A stretch of 40,416 nucleotides of DNA from Candidatus Hermodarchaeota archaeon (lineage in GTDB: Archaea > Asgardarchaeota > Hermodarchaeia > Hermodarchaeales > Hermodarchaeaceae). The stretch is taken from NCBI GenBank assembly GCA_016839995.1, contig JAEOTD010000064.1, forward strand, positions 1-40,416, written 5' to 3'. Below are positions 6,181-40,416 of this stretch, piece by piece. Under the pieces are notes generated by a model. That model did not search any database, was not told the origin of the DNA, and saw nothing but the letters and a program-made list of their open reading frames with translations. The translations under genes were made by a program, and so were the position numbers. Position 1 is the first letter of the stretch, and every line of letters starts with the position of its first letter.

Positions 6181-6939
6181 TTAAAACTCTAAATACCGAA
6201 TTATCTCATCTATCCCAATATCATTACGAACACTAGTTCGGAATACTTTGAGGTTTGGATTAATCTGTGTGGCATCTTGTTCTAATTGATTAACGTCAAC
6301 CTCCATTACCTCTGCCAAATCGATTTTGTTTATCACCAAAATATCTGCTTCGTGAAACATGACGGGGTGTTTTTGAATCATCCAAGGTCCTTCAGTCACA
6401 CTGACGACGACCAATCGCAAATGGCTGCCCAAGGGAAAATCAGCAGGGCAGATTAGGTTGCCAACATTCTCGATAATGATGATTTTTGTTGAGCTCAGAT
6501 CGACCACGTCAAGGGCTTTTTTGATTAGCTTCGCATCAAGGTGGCATTCAACGCCAGTGTTTACTTGAATTGTTTTCACACCATGTTTGGCTATACGATC
6601 CGCATCAATTGTAGTCGTAACATCACCTGCGATTACTAGAATCTCATCTCGACGACTAGCGAGTTTCTGTGAGATGGCTTCAATTAACGAAGTCTTTCCT
6701 GAGCCTACACTGCCCAAGATGTTAATGGTTCGAATACCCTGACTATCGAAATATTCCAGATTCTCACGGGCAAGTGATTTATTTCGGTCCATGAAATTTT
6801 CTTCTAACGTAATATCAATGGTCTCAGAACTATGTGGGTGCGAATGCCTGTGGCTATGTCCGTGTGAGTGCCCATGATGGTGTTCACCTTCATCCGGGGT
6901 AATGATAGTGCGTTTCTTCTCTTCATCTTTTCGTCCCAT
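6181..6939 (-). CDS. hypB: Hydrogenase/urease nickel incorporation GTPase HypB with His-rich N-terminus
   Basis: ORF 252 aa; HHHGHSHGHSHRHSHPHS, INILGSVGSGKTSLIEAI P-loop, NTGVECHLDAKLIKKAL, IIIIENVGNLICPADFPLG. Confidence 0.96.
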   Translation of the reverse strand: MGRKDEEKKRTIITPDEGEHHHGHSHGHSHRHSHPHSSETIDITLEENFMDRNKSLARENLEYFDSQGIRTINILGSVGSGKTSLIEAISQKLASRRDEILVIAGDVTTTIDADRIAKHGVKTIQVNTGVECHLDAKLIKKALDVVDLSSTKIIIIENVGNLICPADFPLGSHLRLVVVSVTEGPWMIQKHPVMFHEADILVINKIDLAEVMEVDVNQLEQDATQINPNLKVFRTSVRNDIGIDEIIRYLEF

Positions 6940-7090
6940 TAAGAGACCTCCTAATACATTGGCATATCCCGCTCCTGTACTTTTTGAATCATTCCTTCAT
7001 TCTAGAAGACGAGTAAAAAAGCGACAAAAATCTGGGCTTTTTTAAATAAATAGAAGTTGCACTATATACGGGGCGGTTGGAGGAATTTCG

Positions 7091-7876
7091 GTGCAGGCTT
7101 TTCACATTACTGAAACCCGAGCCATTGTCCCAGTTACTCGGAAGTTAACTCAACTTCGATTTACTGTAGATGATTTATCTGCTCCATTAGTTTCTGGCGA
7201 TGAGGAAGGAGCAAAGCGTGGTCGTATGAGTACTCGACGGATTGGGCAGCTGTTGCCTAAAGCCGTTTTACAATGTCAGAAAGCATCATCGAAGTTCATT
7301 GAATTAAATCTCACCTACGATCGGATTCTTAGGATCCCAGAACCCAGAGGACGCGATAAACGGTATCGCCAAGTCTCGTATTCAGTAACTTCACAGATTC
7401 TCTGGCGTCCTGAAACAGGGTTTTGTTTTATAATGGATGTTCCTCGTCGAGCTGTCGGTGCTGCTACATGGATTTTATCATCCGCGGTCCTTGGTTACCC
7501 GGGTCGGTTATCTGCCTTTGATATCGATAACAGAAAAATGCGAAAAGTAATCCGATATCTAACTGGCACATCAAATGGAGGCCCAGGAGAGTTGGTTCGT
7601 GCGGTATTTCGTGACATCGAGCTCGATGGGAGTTCCCTTGATGAGGTCAATATCCGTGCGCGTGAATTAGAGAAATTAGCCATTTACAAGGATGTTCAAA
7701 AGAGCGCTGGTTCAATTCATGCCATTAGCTTCCTTACTCCAATTATTGGTGACATTGGTCGTCCGTTAGCTTGTCGAATGGATGCCACAGGCGCTGTTCA
7801 GATTTATTCACAACGGCTTTCCAATGAAGCCCTTCGCGCCCTTGTTCTTTGGTTTGAGGACATGCTTGCGAAGTAA
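7091..7876 (+). CDS. Hypothetical protein (261 aa)
   Basis: Long ORF with no recognised motif; preceded by TATA-like ttttttaaataaata and a GGAGG-like site. Confidence 0.8.
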   Translation: MQAFHITETRAIVPVTRKLTQLRFTVDDLSAPLVSGDEEGAKRGRMSTRRIGQLLPKAVLQCQKASSKFIELNLTYDRILRIPEPRGRDKRYRQVSYSVTSQILWRPETGFCFIMDVPRRAVGAATWILSSAVLGYPGRLSAFDIDNRKMRKVIRYLTGTSNGGPGELVRAVFRDIELDGSSLDEVNIRARELEKLAIYKDVQKSAGSIHAISFLTPIIGDIGRPLACRMDATGAVQIYSQRLSNEALRALVLWFEDMLAK

Positions 7877-36707: not shown

Positions 36708-37925
36708 ATGCCCATCAAACCTCTGCATAGTGACCTTATCACGAACCGAACAAAAACAATTCAATATGCTATCCGGGATGTTGTCGTAACCGCGAAACGG
36801 CTTGAAGCCTCCGGACAACAAATCACCTATCTCAATATTGGTGATCCGATAGTCTACGATTTTGAAACTCCTTCCTTTTTAGTGGACGCGTTTTGTGCTG
36901 CAGCTAAAGAGGGACATAACGGGTACTCGGCATCTGCAGGAATTCCTACATTTCGTAAAGCCGTTGTTAAGAAAGAGAAACGCATCAATCAAGTAACTAT
37001 CCACGAATCAGATGTTATAGCAACAGCTGGCATATCGGAAGGCATCCAAATGGTAATGGCTGCACTGGTTCACCCAGGGTCTGAAGTTCTGGTACCCGGA
37101 CCAACGTATCCACCATACCTAGCCTTTGTCCGATTTTTCGATGGAACAGCGCTTACTTATCGTTGCATTGAGGAGGAAGGCTGGCGTCCTGATCCTGATG
37201 ATATTCGTGCTCAAATCACTGACAAGACTGCTGCAATAGTCCTCATTAATCCGAATAATCCCACAGGATCCGTATATTCGGAAAAAACTATCAAAACCTT
37301 CGTCAATATTGCAGGTGAATATGGGCTCCCACTCATTTCCGACGAAGTCTATGATCGCTTAATCTATGATCAGACACCAAAAAGCACCGCGGCTCTAGCC
37401 AAAGATGTGCCTGTTATAGGTTTCAACGGGTTATCCAAAGTCTACCTTGTCCCCGGCTGGCGCATCGGATACATGTACTTCCATCATCAAAACCACGAAT
37501 TCGCAGAGTTAAAAGAACACATCCTCAAGCAGGCACGCATCCGAATATGCACCAACGCACCTGCTCAATATGCAAGTGCCGTTGCGCTCCAAGAAAGTGA
37601 TGCATATCTCAAACCGGTCCTTGCCCGTCTCCGCGAACGACGAGACCTAGTCTCCAAACGTCTTAACGAAATCCAAGGCATCTCAACATCTAAACCAGAA
37701 GGTGCATTTTACATCTTTCCAAAAATCAACCTCAACAATCGGTGGACAAATGATGAAACTTTTGTCATGGAACTGCTTCACAAGACTGGAGTATTAGTTG
37801 TTCATGGTTCCGGTTTTGACCCAAACCATGGTGCAAATCATTTCCGCCTTGTTTTCTTGGCTCCACCACCCATTCTCAACTCAGCATTGGATGCTCTACA
37901 ACATTTCATGGAAAAAGGGTCCTAA
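36708..37925 (+). CDS. PLP-dependent class I/II aminotransferase (alanine/aspartate aminotransferase-like)
   Basis: ORF from 36699; TYLNIGDPIVYDFETP, VLINPNNPTGSVYS, LPLISDEVYDRLIYD, FNGLSKVYLVPGWRIGYMYF (PLP lysine). Confidence 0.93.
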   Translation: MPIKPLHSDLITNRTKTIQYAIRDVVVTAKRLEASGQQITYLNIGDPIVYDFETPSFLVDAFCAAAKEGHNGYSASAGIPTFRKAVVKKEKRINQVTIHESDVIATAGISEGIQMVMAALVHPGSEVLVPGPTYPPYLAFVRFFDGTALTYRCIEEEGWRPDPDDIRAQITDKTAAIVLINPNNPTGSVYSEKTIKTFVNIAGEYGLPLISDEVYDRLIYDQTPKSTAALAKDVPVIGFNGLSKVYLVPGWRIGYMYFHHQNHEFAELKEHILKQARIRICTNAPAQYASAVALQESDAYLKPVLARLRERRDLVSKRLNEIQGISTSKPEGAFYIFPKINLNNRWTNDETFVMELLHKTGVLVVHGSGFDPNHGANHFRLVFLAPPPILNSALDALQHFMEKGS

Positions 37926-38260
37926 TCAAAACCTGATGTATCCGGTGGCTCTTGAGAATCCATACCTGATTCAGTTTGTGTCTCAGCTGAGCGTGATGTA
38001 TTAATTCGCGCCTCCTGAACCATGCGGCCAATGGTTCCAAACATGCGCTCAGGGCTAAACATAGGCATCGAGACGTTGTTTTGAATAGCATTGAAAATCT
38101 CGTTATGATTGAGATCGGTTGTCAAGGGTGTGGTGCTGACTTCGGTGGGTCCACGAAAAACCTTCACCGCCCATCGGTCACCCATACGTCCAAGCTCAAC
38201 GAGGTACGAGGTCATTGGAAGGATGTATTTTTGCGTGATAGCCTGGTATTCTTGCGACAT
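37922..38260 (-). CDS. Hypothetical protein (112 aa)
   Basis: ORF with ATG start; overlaps the convergent aminotransferase stop by 4 nt. Confidence 0.65.
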   Translation of the reverse strand: MSQEYQAITQKYILPMTSYLVELGRMGDRWAVKVFRGPTEVSTTPLTTDLNHNEIFNAIQNNVSMPMFSPERMFGTIGRMVQEARINTSRSAETQTESGMDSQEPPDTSGFD

Positions 38261-38324: not shown

Positions 38325-39575
38325 TCAAGATTTCTCAGTTAAATCTTCACCAATAATCGCCATTACATCGTCAGGAAACTCGATTTCAATGTCACCCCGA
38401 AGGATGCTGGACAAAGATTTTTCCAAGCGTTGTTGCAGGAGTTTTAAGCGCGCAGATACCTTACCGATTTGTTCCTTATGGTGGCTAATTTCTGCGGCAA
38501 CATCCCGTTTCTCCCATTCAGCTCGTTCTAAAGATTTTTCCAGTTCACGCCGCTCATCAATGGAAACTGAAGACTCTATCTCGGATTTCCGGGAATCGAG
38601 AGTTGAAAAACGCAAACGATAGTCATCTAACGCCCCTCTCTCAACAATCTGGTCCCGGCGGTCGATTACTTTACGGTTAAGACTGGCTTTGAACTTGATT
38701 TTCTTTTCCTGAATTGCATCGCTGAGGGCATTCAGTCCTGCTTTCAAACGTGTGAGAATATCAGTGTCTCTTTGAAATGCTTGCCAAGGATCTGCGGAGT
38801 AGGCATCCGCGCCTTCTCCCGCCGTTGAAGAAATCATGATGGATTGTCCTGCAGCCTGACTAAGCTTTTTGAAAGGTTTTTTCAGAAAATTCAATTGGTT
38901 CGTCACAATCATCCGTATACTGTCAATTTCTCGACGAATTTCATCAATCTCCTCTAAACCTGAATCCTTGCGAAACTGTTCAATGCCGGTTTGCTGCTTC
39001 TCAATCCGTCCTTCTGCTTTCTCCTGCTGTTGTTGCAGCTCAACTAAGTCCTTCGACAGTTTCACGACCTGATGAGACCGGTCTTCGATTTCTTCAACCT
39101 CATCACGAATTTGATCCAGCTGCTTCGGAAGCTTATCCTTCTCCCATATCTTCTTGATTTTCTGATACCCCTGATTAATCGCCCGAAACTGATAATCTAA
39201 TTCTTTGACGACACGCTTATGCACTTGTGGTAACCGGCGAATATATCGGTGGCCAGCCATCGTCACGTCACGAATATACCTTTCCAAATCCTGTAACAGC
39301 TCTTCTACCGATGCATACGTAATCTCTTCAGGAAATTCAACAGAATCAAAGAGCGTTTTCAACCGATTCGCCAGTTTCGCAGCAGCACCGGGAACGGTCA
39401 TTTCACCATCTATGACCACTTCTTCAAGTAACAAATCCGCAGTTTCTGTGGTTTTCACCAACGCCTCTTCAATCCGGTCCAAGTGCTTCTGAATATCGGC
39501 CCGGTAATTAAAGAGCAAATCCTCGGTCTGCTTTGAAAACCAATCAGGTAACTCATATACGTCAATCAATGACAC
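38325..39575 (-). CDS. Long coiled-coil protein (416 aa)
   Basis: ORF with extended Glu/Lys/Arg/Gln heptad-like segments, no TM or Cys motif. Confidence 0.8.
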   Translation of the reverse strand: MSLIDVYELPDWFSKQTEDLLFNYRADIQKHLDRIEEALVKTTETADLLLEEVVIDGEMTVPGAAAKLANRLKTLFDSVEFPEEITYASVEELLQDLERYIRDVTMAGHRYIRRLPQVHKRVVKELDYQFRAINQGYQKIKKIWEKDKLPKQLDQIRDEVEEIEDRSHQVVKLSKDLVELQQQQEKAEGRIEKQQTGIEQFRKDSGLEEIDEIRREIDSIRMIVTNQLNFLKKPFKKLSQAAGQSIMISSTAGEGADAYSADPWQAFQRDTDILTRLKAGLNALSDAIQEKKIKFKASLNRKVIDRRDQIVERGALDDYRLRFSTLDSRKSEIESSVSIDERRELEKSLERAEWEKRDVAAEISHHKEQIGKVSARLKLLQQRLEKSLSSILRGDIEIEFPDDVMAIIGEDLTEKS

Positions 39576-39701: not shown

Positions 39702-40416
39702 ATGACGAAGCAAACCACCTGGGATGTGCGGGTCATAATCCATAACGCAATACTCTTCAGCATCAGCCCCCGCAAAGACGAAGTGGGTCTCCAAGCCAGT
39801 GTCATTTTTCGCAAACAATACTGGCGGGTCGTCCTCGGTGACGAACAAATCAGTGAATTTCTGCGTGCCTACAAAGAATTCATGAGCCACGTGCAATCCA
39901 CTGACATCCCCGCCCTCCCCATACACATCCATGGCGCCAAATACATCTTCTCCAATATCGACGACCTCCTCCTTGTATTTATCAGCCACACGCAAGACGA
40001 AGACAACCGTGTTGGTGAAAAAGTCAAAACCGCCCTCCGCATGCTCGTGGGCAAATACGGCACCGAACAAACCAAAGAAATCGGCACCAGCGACGATCCT
40101 CAACCCATCGAAGACCTCATCGACAACTACATCATGAGCAAACTCAAAGTCAGCCTCGTCGGAGAAGGCGGCGTCGGCAAAACCACCCTCCTCCGACTCC
40201 TCAAAGGCAGCGCCCCACCCACCGAATACGTCCCCACCATCGCCTTAAGCATCGAACAGATCGAGGCCACACGCTACGGCACCTACTCCATCATCCTCTG
40301 GGACTTCGCCGGCCAAGAACGCTTCCGCCGCCTCTGGACCATCTACTTCCGCGGCTCCGACATCGTCTTCATCATCACCGACTCCACCCTCAACAACGTC
40401 ATCGCCACCAAAGAAA
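39702..40416 (+). CDS. Longin/Roadblock-like N-terminal domain fused to Ras-like small GTPase (partial, runs off right edge)
   Basis: Manual translation from ATG 39702 (in-frame TAA upstream): MTKQTTWDVRVIIHNAILFSISPRKDEVGLQASVIFRKQYWRVVLGDEQISEFLRAYKEFMSHVQSTDIPALPIHIHGAKYIFSNIDDLLLVFISHTQDEDNRVGEKVKTALRMLVGKYG...MSKLKVSLVGEGGVGKTTLLRLLKGSAPPTEYVPTIALSIEQIEATRYGTYSIILWDFAGQERFRRLWTIYFRGSDIVFIITDSTLNNVIATKE. P-loop GEGGVGKTT, switch I T, WDFAGQERF. Confidence 0.9.
   Translation, partial: MTKQTTWDVRVIIHNAILFSISPRKDEVGLQASVIFRKQYWRVVLGDEQISEFLRAYKEFMSHVQSTDIPALPIHIHGAKYIFSNIDDLLLVFISHTQDEDNRVGEKVKTALRMLVGKYGTEQTKEIGTSDDPQPIEDLIDNYIMSKLKVSLVGEGGVGKTTLLRLLKGSAPPTEYVPTIALSIEQIEATRYGTYSIILWDFAGQERFRRLWTIYFRGSDIVFIITDSTLNNVIATKE

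Follow-up and report, generated by a model that had tools for sequence, protein, structure and literature searches.

A Hermodarchaeial member of the Asgard longin–Arf-like GTPase fusion family

The last gene of the window, which is the whole stretch of DNA analysed here (40,416 bp), almost certainly encodes a longin domain fused to an Arf-like GTPase. Taken as a whole, the gene product is probably best explained as a two-domain longin–Arf-like protein, a nucleotide-driven switch carrying its own platform. The window is the entire contig G000:C36 of a Hermodarchaeia (Asgard) MAG of 148 contigs and 1.66 Mb with 20 Ras-family matches, and its nearest relatives are Hermodarchaeota / Candidatus Hermodarchaeum. 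The final ORF (39702–40415, forward strand) stays open up to the contig end, and the window contains only the 5' part of the gene for this two-domain Asgard protein. The following features were assigned in the window:

39735–40139, forward strand: longin domain (AF2, Foldseek against PDB, profile against PDB, Pfam of family members)
39735–39737, forward strand: likely true start codon ATA, near-cognate (position compared across Hermodarchaeia orthologs)
40140–40416, forward strand: N-terminal half only of an Arf-like G domain, cut by the contig end (Pfam, PDB phmmer, Foldseek)
40161–40184, forward strand: P-loop GEGGVGKT, G1 (sequence reading, conservation in 56 full-length relatives)
40299–40325, forward strand: switch II / G3 WDFAGQERF including the Gln at the catalytic position (sequence reading, 56 of 56 relatives)
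38325–39575, reverse strand: divergent gene of a coiled-coil protein, context outside the fusion, a kept neighbour in Hermodarchaeia
37922–38260, reverse strand: small protein gene near paralog A (the fusion gene of the window), conserved in Hermodarchaeia and without a Pfam family

The full protein was read from the complete orthologs L058 and L059, which lie on longer contigs, and comprises about 296 aa from the conserved start. Complete Hermodarchaeia orthologs are 90–92% identical to the window protein and end with …DAVDRYIGTE (stop) directly after the G domain; they contain the longin domain, the Arf-like G domain and nothing further. Four of the eight Hermodarchaeia genomes have a contig break within the fusion gene (at the ends of G000:C36 and G001:C43 and at the starts of G004:C241 and G006:C152); strong conservation of the G domain among co-occurring strains may be the reason. 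The motifs quoted in the initial annotation (IHGAKYIFSNIDDLLLVFISH, GEGGVGKTT and WDFAGQERF) were all found in the window sequence. The N-terminal domain described there is present, but its length of about 147 residues had to be corrected to about 135, as homology starts at codon 12 (39735). The divergent coiled-coil neighbour of paralog A recurs in L051, L052, L054 and L056, and a Pfam search with its product yielded no family above the cut-off.

The start of the gene was assigned by comparison with the family. At the conserved start position all seven Hermodarchaeia orthologs (the window and L058 to L063) carry ATA, ATT or ACG, while ATG, GTG or TTG is present in 67 of the 69 other family members tallied; in the two exceptions ATG or GTG lies one to three codons further 5'. 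L058 and L063 lack any in-frame ATG, GTG or TTG between the upstream stop and the conserved start, and the canonical alternative in the window copy is GTG at 39726. Several Hermodarchaeia orthologs have a GGTG-type Shine–Dalgarno motif a few bases 5' of the conserved start, and if translation of L058 began only at the next Met (MIREF…), two longin strands would be lost. ATA at 39735 is thus the likely real start of the window gene, judged from sequence comparison. Given near-cognate starts in the Hermodarchaeia orthologs, gene callers would cut the longin domain short.

The AF2 model of the N-terminal domain was obtained with a pLDDT of 89 and a pTM of 0.86. It consists of strands at residues 2–12 and 19–28, a helix at 36–52, strands at 63–65, 68–75 and 78–85, and helices at 90–108, 110–117 and 123–134. 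This is the longin order beta1-beta2-alpha1-beta3-beta4-beta5-alpha2-alpha3, and the N-terminal helix of roadblock domains is absent. All 50 of the 50 Foldseek matches listed against the PDB were longin proteins or complexes (E 2e-6 downward), among them AP sigma/mu, COPI zeta/delta, VAMP7, TRAPP Bet5/Trs23, Sec22b and Mon1–Ccz1 as well as GATOR1 and KICSTOR subunits. A longin profile of 58 sequences gave weak and consistent best matches in the PDB to AP-4 sigma (E 0.009) and AP-3 sigma/mu (E 0.02–0.34), and the N-terminal domains of relatives matched Fuz_longin_1 (5.7e-7), Clat_adaptor_s (6.9e-5) and Longin in Pfam. The longin-like identity originally suggested is upheld by profile, topology and Foldseek; a roadblock identity was ruled out by the wrong topology and by the Pfam search of the N-terminal domain, in which no roadblock family was found.

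The cut-off G domain of the window matched Roc (3e-15), Arf (1.6e-12) and Ras (2.7e-12) in Pfam, far beyond chance, which confirms the Ras/Rab/Arf-like domain seen in the initial annotation. The complete ortholog L058 matched Arf best (1.7e-18), followed by Roc (1.9e-17), Ras (6.6e-15), SRPRB (5e-5) and Gtr1_RagA (6e-4). Compared with Ras, Rab, Rag and SRbeta, similarity was best to Arf in Pfam, PDB phmmer and Foldseek: phmmer gave Arf1/Arf2 first, then Arl8 and ArfR, and the top Foldseek match was the Asgard GerdArfR1 (8oum). In 56 full-length relatives the G, GG and GK of the P-loop GxGGxGK were invariant, as were W, D, F, G and Q of WDFxGQ (56/56) and the switch-I Thr and NKQD (56/56). Because all catalytic motifs are invariant, an active GTP/GDP switch is expected, and the fusion protein is predicted from its sequence to be an active GTPase. 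The domain is called Arf-like and not Arf because it differs in three respects. In the Arf signature WDxGGQxxxRxLW the RxLW is near-invariant, but the first Gly is replaced by Ala or Pro (WDFAGQ, WDFPGQ) in all 56 relatives; the interswitch exceeds that of Arf1 by 3 residues; and the N-terminal amphipathic (myristoylated) helix of the Arf type is absent, with the longin domain in its place. Of 77 relatives, 76 lack Cys at the final 8 positions, which gives no indication of a prenyl anchor.

The longin domain is joined to the G domain without a flexible linker. In the AF2 model of the full-length protein the final helix of the longin domain (123–133) and the first G-domain strand (135–142) are one residue apart. 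This model is of moderate confidence (pTM 0.63), with a pLDDT of about 58–62 in switch I. Across the junction, a block of 27 alignment columns was free of insertions and deletions in all 56 proteins compared, which cover five Asgard classes (Hermod-, Thor-, Loki-, Odin- and Helarchaeia). Distances between longin domains correlated with those between G domains (Mantel r 0.85; permuted maximum 0.26), and this together with the gap-free junction indicates that the two domains have long been inherited as one unit. In the only tree built, from the joined longin and G alignment of the fusion family, window A grouped with Hermodarchaeial A orthologs (98% SH-aLRT); this group next joined the Thorarchaeial group, and several deep branches were long. 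The proposal of a single polypeptide was borne out, as the same architecture is present on dozens of independent contigs, by which an assembly or frameshift artefact was ruled out.

A reading of the N-terminal region as roadblock or an unrelated fold, or of the fusion as such an artefact, is thus very improbable. It could draw on the result that the isolated N-terminal domain of the window alone had no significant match in Pfam, but AF2, Foldseek, the profile and Pfam of the family members all agree on longin. The AF2 model also answers the possibility, raised at the outset, of a disordered or unrelated N-terminal region with a confident longin order.

Hermodarchaeia contain a second longin–Arf-like gene, paralog B. 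In the window's genus (g1) both genes favour C-ending codons to an extreme degree, and among the regions and longer genes checked there they alone did so:

39735–40415 of the window, and 6785–7564 and 11871–12740 of L051: C-ending-biased longin–Arf-like genes A and B

In the window copy of A, C-ending codons make up 88% of the C/T-ending codons examined, compared with a window mean of 39% (SD 12). The share is 48–58% in the genes for EF-1A, thermosome and EF-2 of this genome, and high expression as a simple cause is weakened because these genes lack the bias. In the sister genus A is without it (GC3 0.41–0.43). Genus-wide GC drift was ruled out as the cause, since the enrichment is confined to A and B among the regions checked. 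In genus g2, A and B share a strand and are separated by about 1 kb (L054, L055, L056), while their distance in g1 is 5–24 kb, so linkage is not strict. A gene for a protein of about 305 aa lies directly upstream of B (L055 1002–1937, L051 10932–11849, L137 429–1343), and one ortholog of this protein had weak similarity to Cyclin_C (E 0.006).

Separate longin genes, coding for about 273 aa, are also present in the same genomes. They share exactly 4 nt with the Rab-like GTPase gene that follows, and eight Hermodarchaeia genomes yielded 14 such pairs:

L001, 617–1438 and 1435–1989: longin gene and Rab-like GTPase gene
L009, 629–1447 and 1444–1863: longin gene and Rab-like GTPase gene
L144–L151 and L174–L178: further longin and Rab-like gene pairs

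The single exception is L181 with a divergent arrangement, and the overlap was found in none of 22 Thorarchaeial homologs. The separate longin protein matched the FUZ/MON1/HPS1 longin family of Pfam weakly (5e-5, below the curated cut-off). These overlapping pairs are independent support for a link of longin domains and GTPases in the same genomes, and it is possible that they are trans regulator–GTPase pairs. In MK-D1, GTPases are generally outside operons with longins (PMC10933270), which in comparison with the Hermodarchaeia overlaps points to a lineage difference.

How the longin domain acts was considered from the models and from known systems. The longin domain is placed exactly at the position of the Arf N-terminal helix, and its last helix would lead directly into the first G-domain strand. 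Movement of the switch and interswitch driven by the nucleotide would then displace the longin domain, so that its surface for binding partners and forming dimers becomes exposed or hidden, and the protein would be a membrane- or complex-recruiting switch with its own platform. We infer this shift because the longin helix runs straight into strand 1 across the gap-free junction. As a particular mechanism, a GTP switch that moves a rigidly attached partner and dimer platform is tentative and has a little less than an even chance. An Arf-type toggle is uncertain because of the longer interswitch and WDFAGQ instead of WDxGGQ, the modest pTM and switch-I pLDDT of the full-length model speak against relying on it, and the longin domain may simply dimerise or tether. 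Alternatively, the longin domain could be a putative built-in GEF or GAP that docks in cis on its own switch regions or on those of a dimer partner, by analogy to Bet5/Trs23–Ypt1, Mon1–Ccz1–Ypt7 and MglB–MglA. The longins of TRAPP Bet5/Trs23 and Mon1–Ccz1 among the fold matches listed and the trans longin genes overlapping Rab-like genes (with their FUZ/MON1/HPS1 match) favour such a regulator, but the gap-free junction restricts docking on the protein's own switches, so that those of a partner would be required, and this alternative appears rather unlikely.

Equally doubtful is that the longin domain serves chiefly as a platform for dimerisation, on which A and B would pair into a GTPase heterodimer much as Rag GTPases do through roadblock domains. 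The close spacing of A and B in g2 and their common codon bias in g1 fit this, as does the operonic Rag-like pair of MK-D1, which was modelled as a heterodimer (PMC10933270), whereas the distance of 5–24 kb in g1 does not. A further extension, for which we see only a slim chance, is that A and B would be a specialised heterodimeric GTPase module, expressed under a control of its own (the near-cognate start in A, the exceptional C-ending codons in both) beside the trans longin–Rab pairs, giving a trafficking-like switchboard in cis and trans. The nucleotide-driven switch with its own platform is kept as the preferred reading.

When 85,462 species genomes were scanned, the best 79 loci all proved to be Asgard, by name or kinship. 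The longin domain occurs in 204 of the 232 Asgard genomes (E ≤ 1e-5), a number that counts the domain and not strictly the fusion; the fusion itself was seen in Hermod-, Thor-, Loki-, Odin- and Helarchaeia. Relatives of the same domain order from Loki-, Thor-, Odin- and Helarchaeia align with the window family over both domains. The longin–Arf-like fusion is already published, and the window gene adds a Hermodarchaeia example. According to PMC4917890, 2016 work is reported to have found five such fusions in Lokiarchaeum, and 26 of 74 GTPases of MK-D1 are fused to roadblock or longin domains (2024, PMC10933270). The longin–Arf-like/Rag-like fusions of Lokiarchaeum and MK-D1 likewise combine a longin domain and a small GTPase in one polypeptide. 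The Hermodarchaeia fusion differs from the Asgard fusions by lacking a C-terminal roadblock or acidic tail, and its near-cognate start and strong codon bias are absent from the descriptions in PMC4917890 and PMC10933270. Roadblock-fused Rag-like GTPases carry the roadblock at the N- or C-terminus, while the Hermodarchaeial fusion has a longin N-terminal domain and ends at the G domain. The Asgard ArfRs (GerdArfR1 8oum, HodArfR1 8ouk) are the best structural match of its G domain, but have an N-terminal amphipathic helix (PMC12554972) where the fusion has the longin domain; WDFAGQ and the interswitch longer than that of Arf1 set the fusion apart from both Arf and ArfR.

Eukaryotic TRAPP, Mon1–Ccz1, adaptor coats and the SRP receptor rest on contacts between longins and GTPases. 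The AP-1, AP-3 and COPI complexes bind Arf1, and the sigma, mu, zeta and delta subunits of AP/COPI have the longin domains closest to that of the fusion by fold and profile. In these complexes the longin belongs to a coat subunit separate from the GTPase, whereas in Hermodarchaeia it is fused to the GTPase, with no adaptin partner identified. TRAPP Bet5/Trs23 and Mon1–Ccz1, longin GEFs that regulate Rab GTPases, have the longin fold in common with the fusion, but are trans heterodimers acting on Rab, while the fused Asgard protein is Arf-like. The wide Asgard spread of the fusion alone carries no information on ancestry to eukaryotic trafficking, and the finding alone leaves the picture of trafficking origin unchanged. 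New here are the Hermodarchaeia member, its complete-length reading from relatives and the trans longin–Rab pairs for comparison, and the difference in these pairs between Hermodarchaeia and MK-D1 is worth following. With both domains in one chain and no linker, the longin–Arf-like protein conserved throughout the Asgard archaea offers a tractable model in which to study the first effect of longin domains on GTPases.
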